In this document: positions 1 through 60,207 of the stretch, piece after piece
How positions within the stretch are numbered: the first letter of the stretch is position 1
How the letters are laid out: the number at the start of each line of letters is the position of its first letter
Assembly (NCBI GenBank): GCA_945900945.1
Contig: CAMDKL010000009.1
Span: 1 to 64,000, forward strand
Reading direction: 5' to 3'
Origin: Pirellula staleyi DSM 6068
GTDB taxonomy: Bacteria; Planctomycetota; Planctomycetia; Pirellulales; Pirellulaceae
Length of the DNA stretch: 64,000 nucleotides
Made by a program: the position numbers and the translations under genes
The notes under the pieces: model-generated
What the model was told of the DNA's origin: nothing
Seen by the model: only the letters and a program-made list of their open reading frames with translations
Database searches by the model: none

Positions 1-3000
1 AAGATTGACCTCCGTGAGAATGAAATATCCGTCGCTCAATCATTCGGTGCTAGCATTTACTTTGGCAAGGCCCCTGCAATAATAATTCCCCTTCCTTCAT
101 GCGATGGCCGTGGTGCCAATGACTACAGTGGTCGTCTTTTTCGTGGAGATGCAAGTAAGGCCACCGGAAGCCAATTTGTTCACCTGACACACCGAAACAA
201 CTTGGGGGCTGCAGGCGGTGGAACAGCCAACGGCAGTGCTCCGCATGCCGACTCTCGGGACATGACTTTCGACGCGAACGGTAATTTGATCGAAGTTGAC
301 GACGGTGGTGTTTATCGTCGCACATCGCCGCAGAACAACACGGGAGATTGGTTTTCCGTAAACGGTGACCTGCAAGTCACAGAGGCTCACGACGTAGCGT
401 GGGATTCATTGAGCAACGTCGCGATGACCGGTAATCAAGATACTGGCACTACCTACCAACCCAGTGCGAACTCCAAGCAATGGGTCTCTTTGTCTACTGC
501 GGATGGAGGTGATGTCGCTATCGACAACATTCAGTTAGCAGGCAGCAATCAATCGGTACGTTATTCAAGCTTCCAGAATTTAGGAGCGTTTCGACGAACG
601 GTTTGGGATTCGTCTGGTGGGTTAGTTTCAACGAGTTTTCCTTCGCTTACTCCTGCGGCTGGTAGCACTGCCATTGTGGGAGCATTCCGAACTCCAGTGG
701 AATCCAACTCGGTTGCCGGAGGCAGATTGCTTATTCAAGGTTCAAATTCCTTGTATGAGTCCTTGAATGCAGGCACAACCGTGACCGCAATTGGTGTCAA
801 CCAAGGGGTCAGCAACAGCAGCATCTTCGCCAACGCGATATGGTACGGTGGAACGCAAAACAACGTCGCCAATCCCGATCTTGTATGGGCGGCAAGTGGT
901 AGCGATGTATTCCTAAGGACATCGGGCACTGGGAACGTTACTCAAACGGTCGGTGACCCGACAACGGCGGAAATTCGCGATCTCGCCGTGAACTCTCGTG
1001 ATTGGGCAAATGCTTTCGTCATCGATGACAATCAGGTTTTTCAATCGACCAACTCAGGGAATACCTGGGGCGACATCACCGGCAATTTATTGACCTTGGC
1101 TAGCGACTTACGTTCGATCTCTTTTGTCGCGGGTGTATTCGGCAATTACATCCTTGCAGGTACCAATCTGGGCGTTTTCGCTGCTGCGACCTCTACGCTA
1201 GGTACATGGAGTAAGCTAGGTGGTGCTTTGCCAAATGCGATTGTATTCGACATGGAATACGATGTTTTGGACGACATTCTTGTCGTAGGTACAATGGGTC
1301 GCGGTGCATGGAGTCTAACCAAGGTAACTTCCGTCCTGGAAGCCACCGTAGATATCTCGTTGGGGCTGAGCGAAACTTTTGTAGAAAATGGCGCTGCAGT
1401 CTTTGTCGCTCCAACGGCCAAGGTCACTGAAACAAAGCCCACCGTATACACGGGTACAACGCTGATCGTCGCAATCGGCAACAATTTTCAATCCGGTGAT
1501 CGTCTGGACATCGCAAGTCAAGGAACCGGGGCTGGCGAAATCTCCGTAGTTGGAACTCAGGTCGCCTTCGGTGGATCGCTTATTGGAGATTATTCGGGAC
1601 TTGGACAATCAATCGAAGTTACATTCAACTCGGCAGCAAATCGGGCGGCCATCGAGAGGCTTTTAACCCGTGTTTCCTTTGTTCATACGACAGATGATCC
1701 GTCCCCCAATCCGCGAGAGATAACCGCGTTTCTTGACAACGGCCAAAACGGAGCAAGTAATAATGCGACCGTTCTCCTCGACGTCGTTCCTGTCAATGAC
1801 GCGCCTAGTTCGAGCAATGTCTCCTTAGCGTCTATTAACGAAGACACCAAGAATCCGGCAGGTGTCGCCATCGGTCTGCTGGTCGTGCCACCCTTGTTTA
1901 TAGATCCTGATCGTGGCAGTTCCTTGTCTGGAATTGCAATTACTTCGAACAATGCTGTGGTTACAGACGGACAGTGGCAGTACTCCGTGGATGCGGTGAA
2001 TTGGATCCCTGTTGGTAACGTATTACCGGTCGCTAGTTTAGTTCTTTCTTCGTCGACTCGTATTCGATTTCTGTCCGCGAAGGACTATTTCGGAAGACCA
2101 ACATCGCTTTCCTATCGGGTTCTGGACGAAACTTATTTAGGAGGATTCACGACAACGGTACCTTGGATACTCGACGTTTCCGCCGCGACCATTATTGGGC
2201 CTGTTTCGTTAGCTGATGCAAGCATAGGCATTCGAATCTTGCCTGTAAACGATGCGCCTATTACCACGGTTCCAAGTCAAGCGACCAGTGTCAAACAAGA
2301 TGAACCGCTGATTTTTCAGATCCAAGCTAGCTGGTTTAGCGACGTGGATAATGCAATCTTAACGCATAGTATCAAATTAGCTAACGGTGCTAATTTACCG
2401 GCCTGGTTATCCTTTAACCCATCCTCAAAACAGTTAATGGGTACGCCGACCAATGATGACGTTGGCACTTACGATTTGGTACTCCAAGCTACGGATGCTG
2501 GCGGATTGTTCACGACACTAAAGCTCCAGTTGTTGGTGATCAATGTAAACGATCGTCCCACCAACATTGAATTGGTTGGCAGCTCTGTTCGTGAAAACGA
2601 TTTTGGAGTATTTATCGGGACGCTCTTTGGTACCGATAAAGATCGAAGCGATCAGTTTACCTGGCAAGTATCCGATCAACGATTCGCAATACAAGGCAAT
2701 ACGCTTTACTTGGCCCCCGGAATTCGACTCAATTATGAAGACACTCCTCGAATAGGTCTACAGATCACAGTTACTGATAACGGCACTCAACCTGGACCGT
2801 TGTCGCTTACGATGCAAAAGACTATTGAAGTACTCGACGTGAATGAATTTTCACCGTCTTTAAAAGCCACACAATTCAACGTGAATGAAGCGGCACTGCC
2901 GTTGTCTGAAATCGGTTTCTTAACGGCGCCGGACGGTGATACCAACAACCGTGTTCGATTCAGGTTTAACGGAACGTCGCCCCGTCTTTTTTCACTTGAC

Positions 3001-4104
3001 GGCACGACAGGACGTATTGCCCTCAAACAAGGCGCTACGCTTGACCACGAATCGGTATCGTCCTTTCAGTTTTTCGTGGAAGCCTTCGACGACGGGCTTC
3101 CAGAACTTGGGACCGTTGCTACAGTCAACGTCACAGTGACGGATTTTAATGAGTTCGACCCTCAAATAACCAATGGTGTAATTTCGATGTCGGAACGGCA
3201 AGTGACTCAGGTTCCGTTTGCGAAGCTCACCGCCACGGATGGTGACACGAGCCAATCGATTCGATTCTTCTTGCCAATCGGTGAAACCCGTTTTTCCGTT
3301 AATTCCAACACGGGCGAACTATTGTTGAATCGTCGCGGACTCTTTGACTTCGAAACGAGTTCAACCGACTCCATCGTGGTTATTGCCCAGGATAATGGGA
3401 CGCCGCCTCGCAGTGTTCAACGAACTTTGCCCCTGTTGATCCTGGATGCAAATGACCCACCTACTGCGGCAAGCGTAGACAAACCAAGTATCTTGTCCAA
3501 TGTATCTGGACTACCTCTTGGCCGGATTTCGATCGTGGACCAGGATCCAGGTCAGCTTTACACGATCATTTCGAGTGATGATCGATTTGTTGTTGTCGGC
3601 GAAGACCTTTTCGTAGCGCCTGGAAAATCGGTAAACGAAACGGATCCCCTACAAATGCTTGTTCCAATCGTTGCGACCGAAATTGGGTCGGATGGTAAGT
3701 CGTATGCATTGAATATTGGCTTGAACCGAATTCCAAACACGCATCCTTGGCAAAATCGGTTGAACCCACTTGATGTGAACCGCGACGACCGTGTCGATCC
3801 GCGAGATGTATTGGCCATTATCAACTTCCTTAACGGGAATGACGTTACCGTATTACCATTACCTAGGCCAGCTAGTACTTTGAACTTGCCGGACTACGAT
3901 GTGGATGGCGACGATGCTTTGAACCCACTTGATGTTCTCGCCATCATCAACTTCATCAATGGCACTTCGAGTGGTGAAGGAGAGGGCAGACGCCAGACGT
4001 TGCCTTCCGCGACAATCCAAACAGCCTCGGACGACGCTGCATGGTTGACAGCCTACACGCAAATCGAAGAAGAGCGTCTTTCCCTACGTCGACGTAGAGG
4101 CTAG
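1..4104 (+). CDS. Giant extracellular cadherin-like protein with C-terminal type I dockerin (5'-truncated by the window)
   Basis: The frame is open from base 1, so the gene begins upstream; a TTG at 202 is only an in-frame codon. About 1367 residues are visible. The first ~400 resemble a BNR/sortilin-like propeller, with an Asp-box-like NSGNTW near residue 347. A Calx-beta/Ig-like stretch follows. From about residue 747 to 1157 there are tandem cadherin-like modules (LNYEDTP, LDHES and FDFETS, each followed by a DNG/DDG turn). The C-terminus carries two dockerin-type calcium loops about 40 residues apart (DVNRDDRVDPRDVLAIINFL and DVDGDDALNPLDVLAIINFI). Dockerins bind cohesins, and a cohesin-like domain occurs in the protein at 43126-47766. 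The role is probably surface adhesion or scaffold attachment. The substrate is unknown. It converges with the ThuA-like gene 22 bp away. Confidence 0.85.
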   Translation, partial: KIDLRENEISVAQSFGASIYFGKAPAIIIPLPSCDGRGANDYSGRLFRGDASKATGSQFVHLTHRNNLGAAGGGTANGSAPHADSRDMTFDANGNLIEVDDGGVYRRTSPQNNTGDWFSVNGDLQVTEAHDVAWDSLSNVAMTGNQDTGTTYQPSANSKQWVSLSTADGGDVAIDNIQLAGSNQSVRYSSFQNLGAFRRTVWDSSGGLVSTSFPSLTPAAGSTAIVGAFRTPVESNSVAGGRLLIQGSNSLYESLNAGTTVTAIGVNQGVSNSSIFANAIWYGGTQNNVANPDLVWAASGSDVFLRTSGTGNVTQTVGDPTTAEIRDLAVNSRDWANAFVIDDNQVFQSTNSGNTWGDITGNLLTLASDLRSISFVAGVFGNYILAGTNLGVFAAATSTLGTWSKLGGALPNAIVFDMEYDVLDDILVVGTMGRGAWSLTKVTSVLEATVDISLGLSETFVENGAAVFVAPTAKVTETKPTVYTGTTLIVAIGNNFQSGDRLDIASQGTGAGEISVVGTQVAFGGSLIGDYSGLGQSIEVTFNSAANRAAIERLLTRVSFVHTTDDPSPNPREITAFLDNGQNGASNNATVLLDVVPVNDAPSSSNVSLASINEDTKNPAGVAIGLLVVPPLFIDPDRGSSLSGIAITSNNAVVTDGQWQYSVDAVNWIPVGNVLPVASLVLSSSTRIRFLSAKDYFGRPTSLSYRVLDETYLGGFTTTVPWILDVSAATIIGPVSLADASIGIRILPVNDAPITTVPSQATSVKQDEPLIFQIQASWFSDVDNAILTHSIKLANGANLPAWLSFNPSSKQLMGTPTNDDVGTYDLVLQATDAGGLFTTLKLQLLVINVNDRPTNIELVGSSVRENDFGVFIGTLFGTDKDRSDQFTWQVSDQRFAIQGNTLYLAPGIRLNYEDTPRIGLQITVTDNGTQPGPLSLTMQKTIEVLDVNEFSPSLKATQFNVNEAALPLSEIGFLTAPDGDTNNRVRFRFNGTSPRLFSLDGTTGRIALKQGATLDHESVSSFQFFVEAFDDGLPELGTVATVNVTVTDFNEFDPQITNGVISMSERQVTQVPFAKLTATDGDTSQSIRFFLPIGETRFSVNSNTGELLLNRRGLFDFETSSTDSIVVIAQDNGTPPRSVQRTLPLLILDANDPPTAASVDKPSILSNVSGLPLGRISIVDQDPGQLYTIISSDDRFVVVGEDLFVAPGKSVNETDPLQMLVPIVATEIGSDGKSYALNIGLNRIPNTHPWQNRLNPLDVNRDDRVDPRDVLAIINFLNGNDVTVLPLPRPASTLNLPDYDVDGDDALNPLDVLAIINFINGTSSGEGEGRRQTLPSATIQTASDDAAWLTAYTQIEEERLSLRRRRG

Positions 4105-43125: not shown

Positions 43126-46100
43126 TCAGCGGGTTCTAAAACCGCGTCGGTAGCCGTTGGATATCGGGTTGGAATTTGCGATGGAGTTCTTGTTGGACAA
43201 CGAATCCAAATCATCGATACTTGACATACTGCCGCGAACCTGTTGGATCGCTTGATCTACAAGTGCCGGATTGAGTGTCGATGTGCTTTCTCCTTCGCCA
43301 GATCCGGTCGTTGACGAAGTTGACATGACAGGAGTGAAGTTCAGTTCGGCCGGAGTAGCTTGGATGCGGAAGAGTGAGGAGCTCCCCTCCTTGCCTCGCA
43401 TAACGACTTTAGAGTCGCTCACAGGTAGAGTAGCTTGCACGTTTTGATTGGTCGGGTTTGTTGCTCGAACCGTCAATTGGTTGCCATCATCGTTCAGCGA
43501 GACTTTTACGTTGCTGAAATTCCGCCAATCACCTTGACCATCGTTCCATACAGATTCAGTGCTTGGAGTCACCGCAGCGGTGATACCGTGTCGCAGGTTT
43601 TGTCCCATAAAATCTCGGATATCGATGTACCGAGCCTCGCGTATACCAACATTAAAGGACGTTGTTAGTGAGCTCGCTGCATTGGTTGCGGAGTTAACTA
43701 ACACGGACTGTTGGCCACCTTGAATGAATGGCAAATCAGCCAACATGAATTGATAGTCGCCTGGTCCAACATTGACAACCTTCGCACCATCGGCCGTGAC
43801 AAGGACGGGCACGGCGGTCGCACCCGCATTACTGCTCGCGGGAGGAATCACTTCCACCGTAAATGGCAATCCACCAAGTCCTAAGGGGACTTGAATTCCA
43901 ACGTCGCGAGGTGTGAAATTGCGGACGTTGAGCGTCACCGTGGCCGTATCCGTCAAACTACTGCCATCACCAAGGGTATATGTGAAAGTAGCCGATCCGG
44001 TGAAGTCCGTCGCTGGCGCACTATAGAGTACCGTTCGACCGTTTGGTCCGATCTGGACACTCCCTGTTCCTGTCGCAGGTTGTGTGACTGCCGTAACAGC
44101 GAGAGTCTCACCCGTATCGACGGTCACGTCATTTGCCAGTACGTTGAGCGATTGATTCGGAGCCGCGAGAGTGTCGAGAGAGTCGTTCACAGCATCCGGT
44201 GCGTCGTTTACACCGGTGACGTTGAAGGTCACAGTTCCGTTTGCAAGCCCACCGTTGCTGCTGCGAACGGTGTAGACCACCAATTCTTGTCCAGCAAAAT
44301 TCGCTTTGGGCGTGAAGCTCAACCGCGTTCCATTGTTGGTGACGCTCGCCGTTCCGTTGGGCGCCGTTGCACTTGAAATGGTCAGCGTATCGCTGGATAC
44401 AGCAGGCGTGTCGTTGGCAAGCACGTCGAAGTCGGCTGCAGCTGCATCTTCGTTGATCGTGAAAGACTCACCGACCACGGTCGGAGGTGGCACGGCTGGA
44501 GAAACGGTTACAGTGACCGTAGCTGTAGATGTCCCGCCGTTGCCGTCGCTGATGGTATAAGTAAACGTCTCATTGCCGGTGAATCCTGATCGGGGCGTAT
44601 ACAACACGCCACTGCCGGCGGTCGCAACGCGGACTGAACCACCTTGAGAGGGATTCCCTACCTGGGTCACCGTTAATGTTTCGCCCGTGTCCGGTCCTGA
44701 CGTATCATTCGTCAAAACGGGAATGAAGACATCGCGGTCCGTTGTCTTGACAGTTCCAAGAAAATCGTTGACCGCAACGGGATTGTCATTGACTGCGGTA
44801 AGCCCCACCGTGACGGTTGCAGTGGCCGACGCTCCCGTTTGATCCTGGACGGTGTAAGTAAAGGTTTCAGACCCATTGGTATTGGCGGCTGGCGTGTAGA
44901 TCAAGCGTCGATTGTCCGAAGCAATCGAAACGGTACCACCGCGCGACGGCGACGAGACCGACTGCAATGTTAGTACGGCGTTCGAGCCCGCAACGATCGT
45001 ATCGTTATCAAGAACGGGAAGTGGGTTGTTGGTGCTGTCTTCGTTGAAATTGAACGTATCGTTCACTGCAACAAAGTTCTGACCGATCGCCAAGTTGGCG
45101 GTCTCGAAAATCACGCGGCTCGAAGGCACGATGACATCTTCTTTGAATACAGTAATTCCACGGCTCGGGTTCTCGGCTGGGTTGGTACTGATGTTTGCTT
45201 GGCCAGTCGCCTTGACTCGCATCCTCACCGTTGCCAGCGTTTGTGGATCTCGTCCTGGGCCAACGTTGAAGCTCGAGAAGGCACCCAGCTCGTCGATCAA
45301 GCCAGCCGTCGTCGTTACCGGTGTCGCTCGCCCATTGCCAAACAAAGACGCATAAGTAACTGGACTTGCGCCAACCAACTCCAGTTTGCTGGAATCATAC
45401 TCAAAGTCCATATAAGCAGAGAAAACACCATCTCCTGCCGGATCACCGTCGGTTCGCAAATCATTTAGAACGATGCGTACGACCAATTCCTGACCGACGC
45501 TGGCCGAAGTGATTGGGCTGGTATTGGTGGAATCAAACAGCTGCAAACTGACTCTTACTTTGGCTTGGGCCGCTACGGCGATAGCCATTGTCTGCGTTTG
45601 CGAATTGCCAGCAACGTCCGTCAGACGCAGGTTTGCCGTTTGAGGACCGATTTGAGACTCGATAGGACTCCAAGTCAAAACGCCGGTCGTCGCATTCACC
45701 GTTAAGCCAGCTGGCGCATTTTCCAAAGCGTATCGCAGTCCCTGGCCTTCTTCCGCAGCAGCCAAATCGAAATTCAACGTGCTGCCGACATTCGCAGCGG
45801 TCGGTAATCCGGAGGCGGGAATTGCAGCCGGCGGTGTCGAATCGTACGAAACGGAGAGAGCGGGAGACGCACTGCTGGTGGCACCGCTTTGCGTCTGCGT
45901 AGCTGCAATGTTTCGCGTGCCATTCCCTAACTGCGAAACGAGTGTGGTTGTGATGGTGGTCGTGGCTCCGGTCGCAACTGCGGTTCCAACGATTTGGTCG
46001 CCGACTCGCAGATTCACGGTAGCGCCCGCAGTCGTGCCCGCTACGACAAATTGCATCGTGGCTGCATTCGTTACATTGTCCGAGTCGCTCGTTCCTGTAT

Positions 46101-47766
46101 CGCTTACCGATGCCAGATCAACACTTGTGGGTGCAGTAATCGCTGCCGCCACATTGAATCGCAAGACTTGAGTGTCAAATGTATCGCCTGTTGTAACGGA
46201 CGCTTGATCGGTAGCTCGAACCCCGGCAGTCAATTCAAATGCACCCGTGAAATTGGCTGGCGCGGTGACACTCAGCACACCCGTCGTTGCATTCACATTA
46301 AATTGGTAGTCAACCGAGCCTCGGCGTGTGGCTTCGTATACGACGGATTGCGCTTCGGCATCTTGGGAAGACAATTGGATGCTGACGGTTTGCCCTGGAG
46401 CTATCGCTGGTACGACGATGTCATTGAGGAATGGTGCGCCATTCGCCCAATCCGCAGCAGCCGTGGCGGTGAAAGTTCGGGAGAACGCATTTCCAGTCGA
46501 ATCTGTCACGGTGACCGTAATCGTTGAGATTCCGGTGTTTGCGAGGGCCTTCAACCGAATTAAGCCGTTCTCGGTGTCATTGAAAATTTCGGCTGACTTG
46601 ATCGAGATCTCCGAGTCAGGGCGATCGTTTGTCACCTTAGTACGCGATATGCCTTCGCGATTCGAATCTCCTTCGATAATCTGACCAAAAATAGAATGGT
46701 TAAAATCGAGATGTCGCTGAGGTCCTTCGGTGATAAAGAATTGAGAGTCGCCGGAGTCGTCCCCTGATTTTGCATACGACAAAATGCCGGTGCGATTGTG
46801 CTGTAGATCGACGTCGAATTGATCGTCAAAGGTTCCGAGAGTCGAACCACTGCTTCCCGTACCCGTTGGGTCACCGGCTTGGAGTACAAAGTTGTCGATC
46901 ACTCGATGGAAGATGATTTTGTTACTAGCCGTTTGATTGTAAAAACCACTGTTGGTGAGCGATTCGATACGTCCCACCGGTCGAGCCGCCTCGTCCGCGA
47001 ACAATCGGTAGACCATTTCACCGTAACCATTGACCGTGAGCTTCCACGACTTGTTGTTTGTAACCATCTCCGCAGCGATGGCCGATGGGTTACTGCTGGT
47101 GACAGTAATTGTTAGCGGACCGCCGTTCGGATCATACGCATCTACAGGCACATGCAGAGGTGAGCCATTGAGCACGGTTTGATTCGGAATCACGGTAAAG
47201 GTTGGGTTGCTACCCGTTGGGATGGCAATTCCCGATAGCGTTGAAAGCTGTTGCAATGTTTGAACGCCAGTCACTCGTTGTCCGTTTCCGAAATCCCATG
47301 TTGGATAGGTTGAAACGTTCTCGCTGATCGCCGTCGCATTGCGAGTGCGATCCGGATTCGACATTTCAATGAAAGGCAAGAAGTGAGCACCGTCTTGAAA
47401 CAGTGCTTTTTGTTCGGTACAGAACGGGCACCAGTCCGCACCAAAGAAACGGACGCCCGCCTGTTGTAAGGCTTTGGCAAATTCGACCAAATTTGGAGCA
47501 TCTTCTCCCTCGCCAACCAGACCGACCGTACTCAGCGGAGCCGAGTTATATTGTGCAGACGCGTTTGCCGTGGGTACCGTCGACGCGGCTACCATGGACG
47601 CAGCCTCGAAGAAATCCACAGCCATCAATTGACGCGACTCTAACGGTTCAAAACGGATTGGGCGTGCCTTATGATTGACCGATCCTGGAAGCACTCCTTG
47701 CAATATTGCCCGAAAAATTCGTCTCGCGGTTAGCTTCAAAGATTCTCGGCGTTGCATTTTCGTCAT
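43126..47766 (-). CDS. 1546-residue surface protein with thioredoxin-like, cyclophilin, cohesin-like and Ig-like domains
   Basis: The N-terminus has basic residues and a LEPR-XLL-like motif (FEPLESRQLMA), the planctomycete hallmark for such giant proteins. A thioredoxin-like domain (about 80-180) contains GADWCPFCTEQKALF. A cyclophilin-type peptidyl-prolyl isomerase domain follows (about 250-420: IIFHRVIDNFVLQAGDPTGT, SQFFITEGPQRHLDFNHSIFG). Then Ig/cadherin-like segments, a cohesin-like domain (about 739-895: LVVRIVLNDLRTDGDPAGDG, AYMDFEYDSSKLELVGA) and at least four tandem VCBS/Ig-like repeats with VLDNDT/VLTNDT/VLANDT. The C-terminal ~250 residues are unassigned. The protein is probably exported and surface-bound. 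The cohesin-like domain could bind the dockerin of the protein at 1-4104. Confidence 0.85.
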   Translation of the reverse strand: MTKMQRRESLKLTARRIFRAILQGVLPGSVNHKARPIRFEPLESRQLMAVDFFEAASMVAASTVPTANASAQYNSAPLSTVGLVGEGEDAPNLVEFAKALQQAGVRFFGADWCPFCTEQKALFQDGAHFLPFIEMSNPDRTRNATAISENVSTYPTWDFGNGQRVTGVQTLQQLSTLSGIAIPTGSNPTFTVIPNQTVLNGSPLHVPVDAYDPNGGPLTITVTSSNPSAIAAEMVTNNKSWKLTVNGYGEMVYRLFADEAARPVGRIESLTNSGFYNQTASNKIIFHRVIDNFVLQAGDPTGTGSSGSTLGTFDDQFDVDLQHNRTGILSYAKSGDDSGDSQFFITEGPQRHLDFNHSIFGQIIEGDSNREGISRTKVTNDRPDSEISIKSAEIFNDTENGLIRLKALANTGISTITVTVTDSTGNAFSRTFTATAAADWANGAPFLNDIVVPAIAPGQTVSIQLSSQDAEAQSVVYEATRRGSVDYQFNVNATTGVLSVTAPANFTGAFELTAGVRATDQASVTTGDTFDTQVLRFNVAAAITAPTSVDLASVSDTGTSDSDNVTNAATMQFVVAGTTAGATVNLRVGDQIVGTAVATGATTTITTTLVSQLGNGTRNIAATQTQSGATSSASPALSVSYDSTPPAAIPASGLPTAANVGSTLNFDLAAAEEGQGLRYALENAPAGLTVNATTGVLTWSPIESQIGPQTANLRLTDVAGNSQTQTMAIAVAAQAKVRVSLQLFDSTNTSPITSASVGQELVVRIVLNDLRTDGDPAGDGVFSAYMDFEYDSSKLELVGASPVTYASLFGNGRATPVTTTAGLIDELGAFSSFNVGPGRDPQTLATVRMRVKATGQANISTNPAENPSRGITVFKEDVIVPSSRVIFETANLAIGQNFVAVNDTFNFNEDSTNNPLPVLDNDTIVAGSNAVLTLQSVSSPSRGGTVSIASDNRRLIYTPAANTNGSETFTYTVQDQTGASATATVTVGLTAVNDNPVAVNDFLGTVKTTDRDVFIPVLTNDTSGPDTGETLTVTQVGNPSQGGSVRVATAGSGVLYTPRSGFTGNETFTYTISDGNGGTSTATVTVTVSPAVPPPTVVGESFTINEDAAAADFDVLANDTPAVSSDTLTISSATAPNGTASVTNNGTRLSFTPKANFAGQELVVYTVRSSNGGLANGTVTFNVTGVNDAPDAVNDSLDTLAAPNQSLNVLANDVTVDTGETLAVTAVTQPATGTGSVQIGPNGRTVLYSAPATDFTGSATFTYTLGDGSSLTDTATVTLNVRNFTPRDVGIQVPLGLGGLPFTVEVIPPASSNAGATAVPVLVTADGAKVVNVGPGDYQFMLADLPFIQGGQQSVLVNSATNAASSLTTSFNVGIREARYIDIRDFMGQNLRHGITAAVTPSTESVWNDGQGDWRNFSNVKVSLNDDGNQLTVRATNPTNQNVQATLPVSDSKVVMRGKEGSSSLFRIQATPAELNFTPVMSTSSTTGSGEGESTSTLNPALVDQAIQQVRGSMSSIDDLDSLSNKNSIANSNPISNGYRRGFRTR

Positions 47767-54408: not shown

Positions 54409-55935
54409 ATGGAAGATACAGTCGTGAACCGCTTCACCCTCCTCTTACTCGTTGGGACTTCGATCGCTGGTGGCAACGCCTTCGGACAAAACCAAGCGTC
54501 AGGACGCGCAGGCAATTCGGGAGTCCGCGTCGCTCAGTCGCCGTTTGTACCGGCTCGGTCCAATGCTGTTCCTCGACCATCGCGCCCCGTCGGGCGCCTT
54601 GTATCGCAGCAAAGTGTGATCGCAGGCGACGGCGACGGTGAAGTCGTGTACGAAGACGCACCCGAAATCGTGCTCGGTGAGTCCTACAATCCAAACGAGG
54701 GATTGGCGGAGATTGGTGGCGGTTGCACCTCCTGTGGCGGTGGCGGATGTGCCAGTTGCGGTGACGCTTGCGGGAGCCCTTTCGGATTCGATCTTTGCAA
54801 CCCAGGCGGCTTAGGTAGAAGGCAATTGTGTATCGCCCTGCCATCCCACGGTTGGGTTAGTGTTGAGTATTTGAACTGGTACCAAAGCGGGATGGAGACT
54901 CCTGCGTTGGTTACAAGTTCTCCCGTTCCAACAGCCCAAAACTTAGCCGGGGTGCTGCCGCTCGCAACAACGCTTTATGGTGGCAACAACGATATTCTCA
55001 GCGATCGCATGAATGGTACACGCGTACGATTCGGCTGGTGGTTTGCAAACAATCCGAATCTTGGCATCGAAGGCGAATACCTAGGCTTCGGAACAAGAAC
55101 TGAGAATTTCGATCAACAATCCAACGGCAGTGCGATTTTGGCTCGACCATTTTATAATGCGGTCACCGGATTGGAAGATTCCGAACTCGTCTCGTTCCCA
55201 GGCGTTTTGTCTGGTCGAGTACGAACGACTGCAACCTCGAAACTAGATGGTGCAGCAGTTCGATTTCGACGACTACTGTGCTGCAGCAGTGGTTGTGCCT
55301 ATTCGCCCATCGCTTGCGGTCCCGTTCCATCTCAGTCCCGAATCGATGCGACTTTAGGATGGAAATATCTCCAACTGAATGAATCCCTCGGAATTCAAGA
55401 AGATCTTACGTCCCTGAGCATAAACAATCCTGGCAGTTTCATCCTCAACGACAACTTCCAAACACGAAACCAATTCAATGGTGTCGAGCTTGGTGTTCAA
55501 TGGATGGGACGTCGAGGTTATTGGTCGCTCGACATGCTGATGCGAATGGGCCTTGGTAACACTCTCCAACAAGTTACCGTCGACGGCAGCACGCAAACAA
55601 CCCAAACTGGAGCCTCAACAACCGCCAACGGTGGATTGCTAGCTCAGCGGACAAATAGCGGAACCTTTGTACGCAATCAATTCGGTGTCGTACCAGAATT
55701 GGGTGCAACTCTTGGCTATCAAATGACCCAAAGAATTCGTCTGACTGCTGGCTATTCCTTCATCTACTGGAGCAACGTGGTTCGCCCAGGGGACCAAATC
55801 GATACAACCGTCAATCCAAACCTACTTCCTCCAGAAAATCCGACACAAACTGCGTTCTTGAACCCCAGGTTTACCTTCCAAGATTCCGATTACTGGGTAC
55901 AGGGATTGAGTCTGGGCGGCGATTTTCGATGGTAA
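54409..55935 (+). CDS. BBP7-type outer-membrane beta-barrel protein
   Basis: 508 residues from the ATG at 54409; a GTG at 54424 would start the signal peptide (RFTLLLLVGTSIAGGNAFGQ) more tightly. A Gly/Cys-rich stretch follows (CTSCGGGGCASCGDACGSPF, about residue 105-125), then the barrel region with alternating amphipathic strands (WVSVEYLNWYQSGMETPALV, RVRFGWWFANNPNLGIEGEY, RIDATLGWKYLQLNESLGIQ, RIRLTAGYSFIYWSNVVRPG) and a C-terminal aromatic-ended strand (GLSLGGDFRW). It is an outer-membrane protein of the BBP7 family found in planctomycetes, of unknown function. Confidence 0.9.
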   Translation: MEDTVVNRFTLLLLVGTSIAGGNAFGQNQASGRAGNSGVRVAQSPFVPARSNAVPRPSRPVGRLVSQQSVIAGDGDGEVVYEDAPEIVLGESYNPNEGLAEIGGGCTSCGGGGCASCGDACGSPFGFDLCNPGGLGRRQLCIALPSHGWVSVEYLNWYQSGMETPALVTSSPVPTAQNLAGVLPLATTLYGGNNDILSDRMNGTRVRFGWWFANNPNLGIEGEYLGFGTRTENFDQQSNGSAILARPFYNAVTGLEDSELVSFPGVLSGRVRTTATSKLDGAAVRFRRLLCCSSGCAYSPIACGPVPSQSRIDATLGWKYLQLNESLGIQEDLTSLSINNPGSFILNDNFQTRNQFNGVELGVQWMGRRGYWSLDMLMRMGLGNTLQQVTVDGSTQTTQTGASTTANGGLLAQRTNSGTFVRNQFGVVPELGATLGYQMTQRIRLTAGYSFIYWSNVVRPGDQIDTTVNPNLLPPENPTQTAFLNPRFTFQDSDYWVQGLSLGGDFRW

Positions 55936-56151: not shown

Positions 56152-59100
56152 ATGGCTGGACTTTGGAATCGACTTTACGAAATCTTGAGTGGCTCGCAAA
56201 AAGGTAAAGCGTCTCCTGCGATCAAAGCACGGGCGAAGCGCAAACTTCGAATGGAGTTGCTCGAGGGACGCCAGTTGATGGCCGCCGACATCACCGGAAC
56301 GGTCTTCCAAGACCTCACCGACAATGGATTCAACACGGGTGTTGATCCCAATCTTTCCGGGGTAAGCGTTGCGCTGTTTCGGGACGGTGGCAACACAACC
56401 TACGATAGCGGCCTTGGCACGAGCGCGGCTGGCGATGATATCTTGGTAGGGACCGTTACCTCTGCGGTTACGACAGGCCTCTATTCGTTCTCGGTAAGTA
56501 CTGCCGGGACTTATTTCATTGTCCAGTCCAGTGTTGCAACGGGCTTGCTCCAAAGATCTACGCAGCGCGTACAAACCCTCATTGTTACCCCAACCGACGT
56601 CGCAGGTATTGCGCTAACAACAATCGATACGTTTGACACGACGGCACAAACGGCGACCGCGTCTTTTGGTGTTACGAACCCGGACTTCAATGCCTCGGTT
56701 GCTTCCGAAGCGATTGGCGGTGAACGAGACATGTTCGTCAGTGCGACTGCCGGCACCATTTCGATGCAATCGGACACACCTTCGACAACCAACTTCTTAG
56801 CATTTGACGTTGGTGCAGGTGCGAACGGCACTAGAATATTGTCCTATGACGGTGTTGACAGCGACGCCCAAGTTCTTGCAACGAGCGGTCTCGGTGGACT
56901 CGATTTGACATCCGCTGGTGCGGCCACCGGCTTCCGTTTTCAAATTGGTGGCGAGGCGGGAACGCAAATAACGCTTCAGGTCAACAGCGGTGCCAACGCG
57001 TCGACAGTGACGGTTGCCATCCCGACGACATCGGGCGCATCGCCATCCGCTATTCTCGACATCCCTTTCACGGATTTCATAACCAGTAGCGGCACGGGCG
57101 CGAACTTCACGAGTGTGGGTGCAATCCAGATCTCAATTACAGGTCCAGATGCCGCCGATGCCATCATCGACACGATCGAAACTTTTGGCGCCACGGTGAT
57201 CACCCGAAACATTGCAAATCTATCGCCCATGAGCATCGGGGATCTTGTCTTCTCCGACCGGAACAACAACGGTCTTTTCGATACAGGAGCACCGACGGAA
57301 ACAGGTATTAGCGGCGTAACACTGCAATTGTTTACAGATACAAACAGCAACGGTGTGTTCGATGCAGGAACGGATATCGCCACACTGAACAGCAGTAACG
57401 TTCCCATAAGCACAACCTCGAATTCGTCGGGCATTTACACGTTTACCAATCTGTTCCCAGGCCGCTATTTTACTGTTATCCCAAGCAGCCAGTTTTTGAC
57501 TGGTGCAGCGGCGGCTGGATTTGTCGTTAGCTCAACGATTCCAGGAGGCACCAACAATGCCAACAAGGGCACAGCGGTTGTTGGCACCGGCGTCGTGACT
57601 TCGCTGGTATCGCTCAACGCAGATACAGCTCCGACCACCGACGGAGACTCGAGTACTGATACGGACTTCAGCTTCGATATTGGCTTGGTTCCTCAGTTCG
57701 ACCTAACGGTTGCAAAGACTTCGACAGCGACGGTCGCGACAACTGGCACTACGATTACTTATACGATCGCGGCGAGGAATGATGGACCATCGCCTGCGAC
57801 TGGGGTGACTCTTTCGGACGACATCCCGGACGGTATTCGCGTCATTACCGCTACATCGAACGTCGGTACCGATGTTGTAACGGTTCCTGCCTCGGCCTCG
57901 GATACCACCGCCACAAATCCAGACAATATTACGGTGGACGTTGGTACATTAGCCGCAAGCGCATCGACACAACGCACTATCACGATCGTTGCCGAAGTGC
58001 TTGCGATAACGACCGGTACTGGTACCCCGGCTGCGATCGTCAACAGCGTGACCATTGCAGGTCTCGGGACGGAATTGACTACGTTGCCTAACACGGCTTC
58101 GGTTTCGCTCCCTGTTCAATTGCGAAGCGACTTGGTTGTCGTAAAAACGATCACAACCAATCCGGCTTCAACCGGCGTTCCAGCGATAGCTGCCCCAGGA
58201 TCGACCATTACCTATACCCTGATAGCGCGTAACGATGGCCCCAGTCGGGCGACGACTGTTCGAGTCACCGACAATGTCCCAGACGGCATCCGAATTTTGA
58301 CGGCGACCTCAAGCGACGTTACCGATACCGTGACGATCCCCGCTTCGTCCCAAGACACAACGGCAAGCAATCCCGATAATCTTACAGTAGCCGTCGGTGA
58401 ACTATTGATCGGTGCAGGCAATCAAACCACGATCACAATCACCGCAGTGATCCTGGCGGCAACATCCGGCCTGTTTACCAACACCGCCAACATTGCGGCG
58501 ACCGACACGACGGTGAACGATGAAATATCACAAACCAACAACGATAGCCAAATCGCCGCAAATGCCCAGCGCGATATCGACTTAGTCGTCACGAAGTCCA
58601 TCACGACGAATCCCGTTTCAAGTACGACCCCAGCCACGGCTTTGCCAAATTCGACGTTTACCTACACGATCCTGGCACGCAACGACGGTCCGTTTGATGC
58701 GACGACGGTACGCGTCGTAGATAATCTTCCAGACGGCATTCGAGTTATCTCTGCGGTTTCCAGTGACGTTACTGACACGGTGACGATTCCAGCCACGGCA
58801 CAAGATACTACGGCAGCAAATAACGATGACATAACCATCGATGTCGGCAACCTAGCCGTTGGAGCTGGAAGCCAGACAACCATTACTATTATTGGTGTCG
58901 TTCTGTCCGCAACACAAGGTAACTTTACCAACTTGGCGACGATCTCAGCGACCGATACCGCTGTCAATATTGAGGCGGTCACGAATAACAACAGTAGTTC
59001 GATTATCGCCAATGCTCCTCGCGCAGTCGACTTAACCGTCGCAAAGTCTGGGCCAACAACGGCGATATCTGGAAACACCATCACTTACACGATGACGGCA

Positions 59101-60207
59101 ACTAACAACGGTCCCTCGGATGCGATCAGCGTGCAAGTTGTTGACGATATTCCAGATGGTATCCGAGTGATCAGTGCAACGGTCAACGGAAGTACGGTAA
59201 CGATTCCGGCATCCGCCTCAGATACTACTGCATCCAATCCTGACAACATCACTTTTGCGGTTGGCAATCTAGCCACGGGTGGCAGCAACAATACGATTAT
59301 CATCGTTGCGGCCATTTTACCTGCATCGACTGCCGCTCTAGTGAACAGCGCCGTGATCAGTACGACGGACATAGCCACAGTCGAGTCAATTGCCAACAAC
59401 AATGCCGCATCGGTCACGACAACATTGACACAACAGAATGACGTTGCAATCAGCAAGAGCGGCCCAACGTCTGCAGCGATCGGTAGCAGTGTTACTTACA
59501 CCATGAACGTGACGAACAATGGCCCGTCGACCGCGACGTCGGTCAGCGTCGTGGATACTCTGCCAACCGGAGTCAACTTTGTTTCGGGAACATCGCTGAT
59601 CGGTTCGACCGCAGCGGGTACCGTTGCTGCTGGCTCAAGCAATACGGCTAACGTGACCATTCCGACATTGGCACCGGGCGAAACGGCTGTCGTTACGATT
59701 CTCGCAACGGCCCCAGCGGCCACTCCAGGCAACGTAACGAACACGGTTACGGTGACTGCGACCAACGATACGGTTTCGACTAACAACACAGCGACCGCCG
59801 CTACTGCCATTACAGCACCTGTTGTTGCAAACCTAGCCGGTCGAATTTACATTGACAGCAACAAAGATGGGACTGGCCAGTCCACAGAGCCTGGCATTTC
59901 CGGCGTACCAGTAACGTTGACGGGTACGGCAACGGTCGGTAACGCGGTGGTGAACCGAACGACCACGACGGATTCCAATGGAGACTACTCCTTTGCAAAT
60001 GTGGATCAAGGAACGTATACGGTCGCTTCGGGATCGCCAAAAGATTTCATTTTCCGAACTGCAAACCCTGGTACAACCGGCGGAACAGCAGGAACTCAGC
60101 AAATCACGACGATCAATCTAGCGGGAGTTAACTCGACGGCCAATAATGTTGGATTCACGCGGGTATTTAGCAAGAGGCTATTCCTAGCATCTGGACCGAC
60201 CAACTAG
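56152..60207 (+). CDS. 1351-residue surface protein with SdrD_B-like and five DUF11 domains
   Basis: N-terminal LEPR-XLL-like motif (MELLEGRQLMAADI). SdrD_B-like domains occur near the start (ITGTVFQDLTDNGFNTGVDP), at about 365 (IGDLVFSDRNNNGLFDTGAP) and at the C-terminus (about 1227, LAGRIYIDSNKDGTGQSTEP). Five DUF11-type repeats begin near residues 516, 659, 809, 960 and 1097. The first four share PDGIRV(I/L)xA and DTTAxNxDN(I/L)T almost unchanged. SdrD_B and DUF11 domains are found in adhesins and surface layers. The chain is Thr/Ala/Ser-rich with very few Cys. It is probably an exported surface or matrix protein. Confidence 0.88.
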   Translation: MAGLWNRLYEILSGSQKGKASPAIKARAKRKLRMELLEGRQLMAADITGTVFQDLTDNGFNTGVDPNLSGVSVALFRDGGNTTYDSGLGTSAAGDDILVGTVTSAVTTGLYSFSVSTAGTYFIVQSSVATGLLQRSTQRVQTLIVTPTDVAGIALTTIDTFDTTAQTATASFGVTNPDFNASVASEAIGGERDMFVSATAGTISMQSDTPSTTNFLAFDVGAGANGTRILSYDGVDSDAQVLATSGLGGLDLTSAGAATGFRFQIGGEAGTQITLQVNSGANASTVTVAIPTTSGASPSAILDIPFTDFITSSGTGANFTSVGAIQISITGPDAADAIIDTIETFGATVITRNIANLSPMSIGDLVFSDRNNNGLFDTGAPTETGISGVTLQLFTDTNSNGVFDAGTDIATLNSSNVPISTTSNSSGIYTFTNLFPGRYFTVIPSSQFLTGAAAAGFVVSSTIPGGTNNANKGTAVVGTGVVTSLVSLNADTAPTTDGDSSTDTDFSFDIGLVPQFDLTVAKTSTATVATTGTTITYTIAARNDGPSPATGVTLSDDIPDGIRVITATSNVGTDVVTVPASASDTTATNPDNITVDVGTLAASASTQRTITIVAEVLAITTGTGTPAAIVNSVTIAGLGTELTTLPNTASVSLPVQLRSDLVVVKTITTNPASTGVPAIAAPGSTITYTLIARNDGPSRATTVRVTDNVPDGIRILTATSSDVTDTVTIPASSQDTTASNPDNLTVAVGELLIGAGNQTTITITAVILAATSGLFTNTANIAATDTTVNDEISQTNNDSQIAANAQRDIDLVVTKSITTNPVSSTTPATALPNSTFTYTILARNDGPFDATTVRVVDNLPDGIRVISAVSSDVTDTVTIPATAQDTTAANNDDITIDVGNLAVGAGSQTTITIIGVVLSATQGNFTNLATISATDTAVNIEAVTNNNSSSIIANAPRAVDLTVAKSGPTTAISGNTITYTMTATNNGPSDAISVQVVDDIPDGIRVISATVNGSTVTIPASASDTTASNPDNITFAVGNLATGGSNNTIIIVAAILPASTAALVNSAVISTTDIATVESIANNNAASVTTTLTQQNDVAISKSGPTSAAIGSSVTYTMNVTNNGPSTATSVSVVDTLPTGVNFVSGTSLIGSTAAGTVAAGSSNTANVTIPTLAPGETAVVTILATAPAATPGNVTNTVTVTATNDTVSTNNTATAATAITAPVVANLAGRIYIDSNKDGTGQSTEPGISGVPVTLTGTATVGNAVVNRTTTTDSNGDYSFANVDQGTYTVASGSPKDFIFRTANPGTTGGTAGTQQITTINLAGVNSTANNVGFTRVFSKRLFLASGPTN

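Follow-up and report, generated by a model that had tools for sequence, protein, structure and literature searches.

The minus strand of the window (the whole stretch of 64,000 nucleotides analysed here, on contig C9 of genome G000, which spans 6.47 Mb at an estimated completeness of 99.96%) encodes P0002, a protein of 1,546 residues with thioredoxin, cyclophilin, cohesin and cadherin-like domains. We place at about even the chance that it is an exported, non-cellulosomal surface receptor for dockerins with built-in folding and redox enzymes. On this reading, P0002 would be exported to the cell surface as a structural protein, its cohesin would hold secreted dockerin-bearing proteins there, and the N-terminal thioredoxin and cyclophilin would assist proteins that are docked, or have just been exported, in folding or in keeping correct disulfides, with binding presumably coupled to folding. 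The receptor reading draws on domain identities, intact active-site residues, conservation across the family and the uniform dockerins of G000.

Architecture and foldase domains of P0002

The features of the P0002 locus are as follows, from the N-terminus of the protein.

43126-47766, minus strand: whole P0002 ORF (1,546 aa, ORF call), thioredoxin-cyclophilin-cohesin-cadherin, predicted exported
47614-47664, minus strand: planctomycete extracellular motif (Planc_extracel), aa 35-51, RPIRFEPLESRQLMA (Pfam, 17.5 bits; ortholog conservation)
47218-47493, minus strand: predicted VKOR-type thioredoxin-like domain, aa ~92-183 (profile to 3kp8 and AlphaFold model)
47419-47430, minus strand: CPFC redox motif, aa 113-116 (sequence; ortholog alignment)
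46588-47043, minus strand: cyclophilin-type peptidyl-prolyl isomerase domain, aa 242-393 (Pfam PF00160, E 3e-28)
45574-46131, minus strand: Ig-like domains Big_13 and He_PIG, aa 546-731 (Pfam)
45061-45570, minus strand: predicted cohesin domain, aa 733-902 (PF00963, 24.1-24.6 bits; AF2 model; Foldseek)
43915-45060, minus strand: tandem Big_9/cadherin-like/tandem-95 repeats, aa ~903-1284 (Pfam Big_9, E 3e-65; NF012211)
43342-43914, minus strand: conserved C-terminal region, aa ~1285-1475 (conservation among relatives)

A single ORF joining thioredoxin-like, cyclophilin, cohesin-like and Ig-like domains had been proposed here in an earlier note that gave no strand; the ORF is real, and the Ig-like component is borne out by Pfam matches to Ig-like/cadherin-like families at E values down to 3e-65. 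Its closest relatives on GTDB contigs come from Pirellula and other planctomycete MAGs, where the best segment is 64-79% identical over most of the protein. PADLOC returned no match, and the gene neighbours of P0002, which are ordinary genes, were rejected as a functional clue. Elsewhere in the window, positions 56152-60207 (plus strand) encode an exported-type protein of 1,351 residues that contains DUF11 and SdrD_B repeats; its gene adjoins one for a BBP7 porin (54409-55935).

The Planc_extracel motif scores below its Pfam cut-off (17.5 versus 25.5 bits), but is nevertheless kept across orthologs. Together with the cadherin-like repeats, this export motif suggests that P0002 is located on the cell surface. 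Neither a transmembrane segment nor a sorting signal was seen in the conserved C-terminal region, and a search of the P0002 sequence for a membrane anchor found none.

The only cysteines of P0002 are C113 and C116 of the CPFC motif. On its own, the surrounding region scores below the Pfam Thioredoxin threshold, while a profile of 25 P0002 orthologs matched the thioredoxin domain of Synechococcus VKOR (3kp8) with an E value of 6e-19. The AlphaFold model of the domain (pLDDT 89) aligns to 3kp8 with Z 14.9 and 34% identity, whereas families ranking after the VKOR partner domain reach a Z of only ~8. As modelled, the domain is of the VKOR type, with a fold nearest the VKOR partner domain and a CxxC present, and the thioredoxin-like CPFC motif noticed earlier falls within it. 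Both cysteines are retained in 28 of 29 alignment rows. The exception is an ortholog in another genome (L061, G010), in which both are substituted (WDSVS) and the remainder of the protein is conserved; redox activity is therefore not required in every case. The VKOR membrane domain (PF07884) has no match in G000 and was found in 56 of 149 genomes sampled from the same family (Pirellulaceae), so VKOR was rejected as an obligatory partner of the thioredoxin domain.

In the cyclophilin domain, R288, F293, Q296, F344, L353 and H357 are invariant across 30 alignment rows. From a hand alignment, we take these to be the equivalents of CypA R55, F60, Q63, F113, L122 and H126, and the position matching CypA W121 is His in P0002 and H, F, N or S across orthologs. 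Judged from its sequence, P0002 has a Pro_isomerase domain with the catalytic Arg/Phe/Gln/Phe/Leu/His set intact, in agreement with the cyclophilin motifs first reported for it.

A divergent cohesin and the dockerins of the same genome

The cohesin had been called at residues ~739-895. When checked by HMM, this call proved right but marginal by sequence, because its PF00963 score of 24.1-24.6 bits barely reaches the cut-off of 24.1, and the domain is missing from the whole-protein hmmscan listing. Across 27 orthologous domains, PF00963 matched 8 at E 0.1 (best E 4e-8). A profile search against PDB sequences recovered no cohesin, and only the fold search did so: for an AlphaFold model built from the 27-ortholog alignment (pLDDT 92.6, pTM 0.88), the best 16 Foldseek matches in the PDB were all cohesins. 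VIA-align gave Z 14.9 against 2vo8, and identity to solved cohesins is 10-20%. The model thus indicates that residues 733-902 of P0002 have a cohesin fold.

The motifs D-x-R, GVF(S/A)AYxD and GLIDELGA are strongly conserved in the ortholog alignment of P0002-type cohesins, and our hand alignment suggests that they perhaps lie on the strands that contact dockerin. This conservation argues against a purely structural or adhesive role for the cohesin-fold domain among the Ig-like domains, in which P0002 would be a cell-wall or adhesion protein that binds no dockerin. Such a role is rather unlikely in our estimation, but it fits the Ig/cadherin-like domains that flank the cohesin, the marginal Pfam score and the adhesive use of the fold elsewhere; a cohesin fold alone is no proof of dockerin binding, since it also occurs in TMEM132 adhesion proteins (PMC6030884).

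A candidate ligand for the P0002 cohesin is encoded at the start of the window.

1-4104, plus strand: P0001, dockerin-bearing candidate ligand, truncated N-terminally at the contig start (ORF; Pfam)
3772-3960, plus strand: type I dockerin of P0001, two complete calcium loops, DVNRDDRVDPRD and DVDGDDALNPLD (PF00404, 34-36 bits)

The P0001 dockerin is genuine, as first described, but the protein does not end with it: the domain covers residues 1258-1320 of 1,367 and is followed by 47 more, with cadherin repeats upstream. The P0002 cohesin is a plausible, putative partner of this dockerin. Approximately 15 dockerin ORFs are present in G000, and the 15 scanned for domains (P0001 among them, some incomplete) feature a peroxiredoxin (P0003), a reprolysin-like peptidase, an L-type lectin, RTX repeats, GEVED, SdrD_B and cadherin/Ig-like domains. 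Because several of these ORFs are truncated at a stretch boundary or contig end, some cargo domains may have escaped detection. P0003 (L094, G000:C54:21655-22395) carries its dockerin in front of the peroxiredoxin (AhpC/TSA), which has the peroxidatic Cys and no second Cys close by. Fusions of this kind occur in only 4/149 family genomes, and dockerin-peroxiredoxin was rejected on that count as a general partner of the P0002 thioredoxin.

A regular expression that left loop positions 10 and 11 free recovered 27 dockerin halves from G000, where position 10 is P in 26 and position 11 is L or I in 25. This uniformity is as expected if the dockerins bind one cohesin type, and the recovered dockerins appear to form one recognition class. 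G000 has three clear cohesins of the same type: P0002 carries one, and the other two belong to P0004 (L091, G000:C7:40374-45764), a protein of 1,797 residues with SdrD_B, GEVED, a dockerin and a metzincin-like HExxHxxGxxH motif (HEMGHNLGAIH). The P0004 cohesins lie as a pair before its dockerin, an adaptor-like architecture. This cohesin-cohesin-dockerin arrangement with a metzincin-like motif, the reprolysin-like dockerin protein L098, and the planctosome proposed in PMC6461901 would all suit a planctosome-like peptidase complex in which dockerins dock mainly on a P0004-type scaffold and P0002 is minor or separate. We consider this unlikely; P0002-type proteins are the best-scoring carriers of this cohesin type in most genomes listed, in a comparison that favours them as the profile was built from P0002-type cohesins.

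The earlier note had also suggested a cellulosome-like arrangement, which in the strict sense is not supported. A true cellulosome for polysaccharide breakdown would accommodate the presence of both cohesin and type I dockerins, but P0002 has a single cohesin and P0004 two, where a cellulosome scaffold has several, and neither P0002 nor any of the 15 dockerin ORFs, some of them incomplete, gave a glycoside hydrolase, CBM or SLH match. For these reasons of cohesin number and missing glycosidases, the system is not taken to be a cellulosome: domain content largely refutes that reading, which we regard as very improbable.

Distribution across the Pirellulaceae

Relatives of any part of P0002 occur in 131 of the 149 family genomes, and near full-length copies in ~56 (a single alignment of at least 1,300 residues, counted by hand from the listing), which points to an old, conserved family. 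The P0002-type cohesin was found in 123 of the 149, with 1 to 19 copies each. Six genomes carry it in a phylum-wide sample of 246, three of them in the family and three outside (two weak matches and one strong), so by sequence search this cohesin seems nearly confined to the Pirellulaceae.

Pfam detects dockerins in 129/149 family genomes, but cohesins in only 42. The P0002-type cohesin, by comparison, is present in 123 of the 129 dockerin-bearing genomes and missing from 20/20 dockerin-free genomes, a pattern that argues against the solely adhesive role considered above. Among the six dockerin-bearing genomes without it, four have one to three dockerin matches, and the other two (G067 and G144, both of genus g67) have 18 and 34. 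For six of the cohesin-negative genomes, the absence is read from the overall tally. A Fisher test by genome (7e-20) was set aside as a measure of significance because the sampled genomes are related. An RpoB tree of 78 genomes shows three changes of the cohesin, each accompanied by lost or marginal dockerins; with marginal dockerins set aside, cohesin and dockerin changes are concordant in 3/3 cases (sign test p 0.25). The phylogeny-corrected co-occurrence is therefore concordant and suggestive, but not significant, and cohesin and dockerin within one protein could explain part of it.

Several family genomes also encode two Pfam-cohesin ORFs on opposite strands, separated by ~1 kb; the shorter spans ~400-500 residues and the longer often exceeds 1,000 (for example, G130:C1:475359-476939, G013:C8:306165-307910 and G045:C1:1684678-1686510).

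Known systems and a possible role for P0002

Cohesin/dockerin systems outside Firmicutes have already been described, including the planctosome, a proposed cohesin/dockerin peptidase complex of the planctomycete Nemodlikiaceae (PMC6461901). Going by the passage that describes it, the planctosome and the G000 system are both planctomycete, non-cellulosomal and equipped with reprolysin-like/metzincin cargo. The planctosome anchor is described there with lamin-tail, P-domains and thrombospondin repeats and with no mention of thioredoxin or cyclophilin, whereas a Pfam scan reported neither lamin-tail nor P-domains in P0002. The Synechococcus VKOR-thioredoxin fusion (3kp9) resembles the P0002 thioredoxin domain (Z 14.7-14.9, 34% identity), but in P0002 this domain stands apart from VKOR, which G000 lacks, and is joined instead to a cyclophilin and a cohesin. 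P0002 shares the cohesin fold with cohesins of clostridial scaffoldins and of C. perfringens glycosidases (2vo8, 2jh2), yet identity to these is 14-18% and no carbohydrate-active context was found on the P0002 side. YTV-domain cell wall proteins of Planctomycetales (Hieu 2008) likewise belong to the planctomycete cell envelope, where P0002 is predicted to reside, and have repeated domains, but are described as cysteine-rich (cited in PMC8567305), in contrast to the two cysteines of P0002. We judge P0002 to be a cohesin protein of non-cellulosomal kind that carries foldase domains, with the planctosome as the nearest idea in print; our literature search found no paper combining cohesin, dockerin, thioredoxin and cyclophilin.

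The receptor reading of P0002 is favoured by the family-wide match between this cohesin and dockerins and by the three concordant changes on the RpoB tree. Counting against it are the sign test, the dockerins of G067 and G144 that have no such cohesin, the loss of both cysteines in L061, and the lack of a VKOR and of an anchor. On balance, the many secreted dockerin proteins of this family have a good candidate partner in the P0002 cohesin. A broader proposal, which we advance tentatively and with more doubt than belief, is that the Pirellulaceae have an overlooked, family-wide cohesin type and that P0002 is its conserved surface receptor, on which captured dockerin proteins are folded or repaired, so that attachment is coupled to extracellular folding. 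A cohesin type mostly missed by Pfam would supply the missing partner for these dockerins and open the purpose of dockerins in planctomycetes to direct tests. If true, a dockerin receptor equipped with foldase domains would represent a new way of tending proteins outside the cell.
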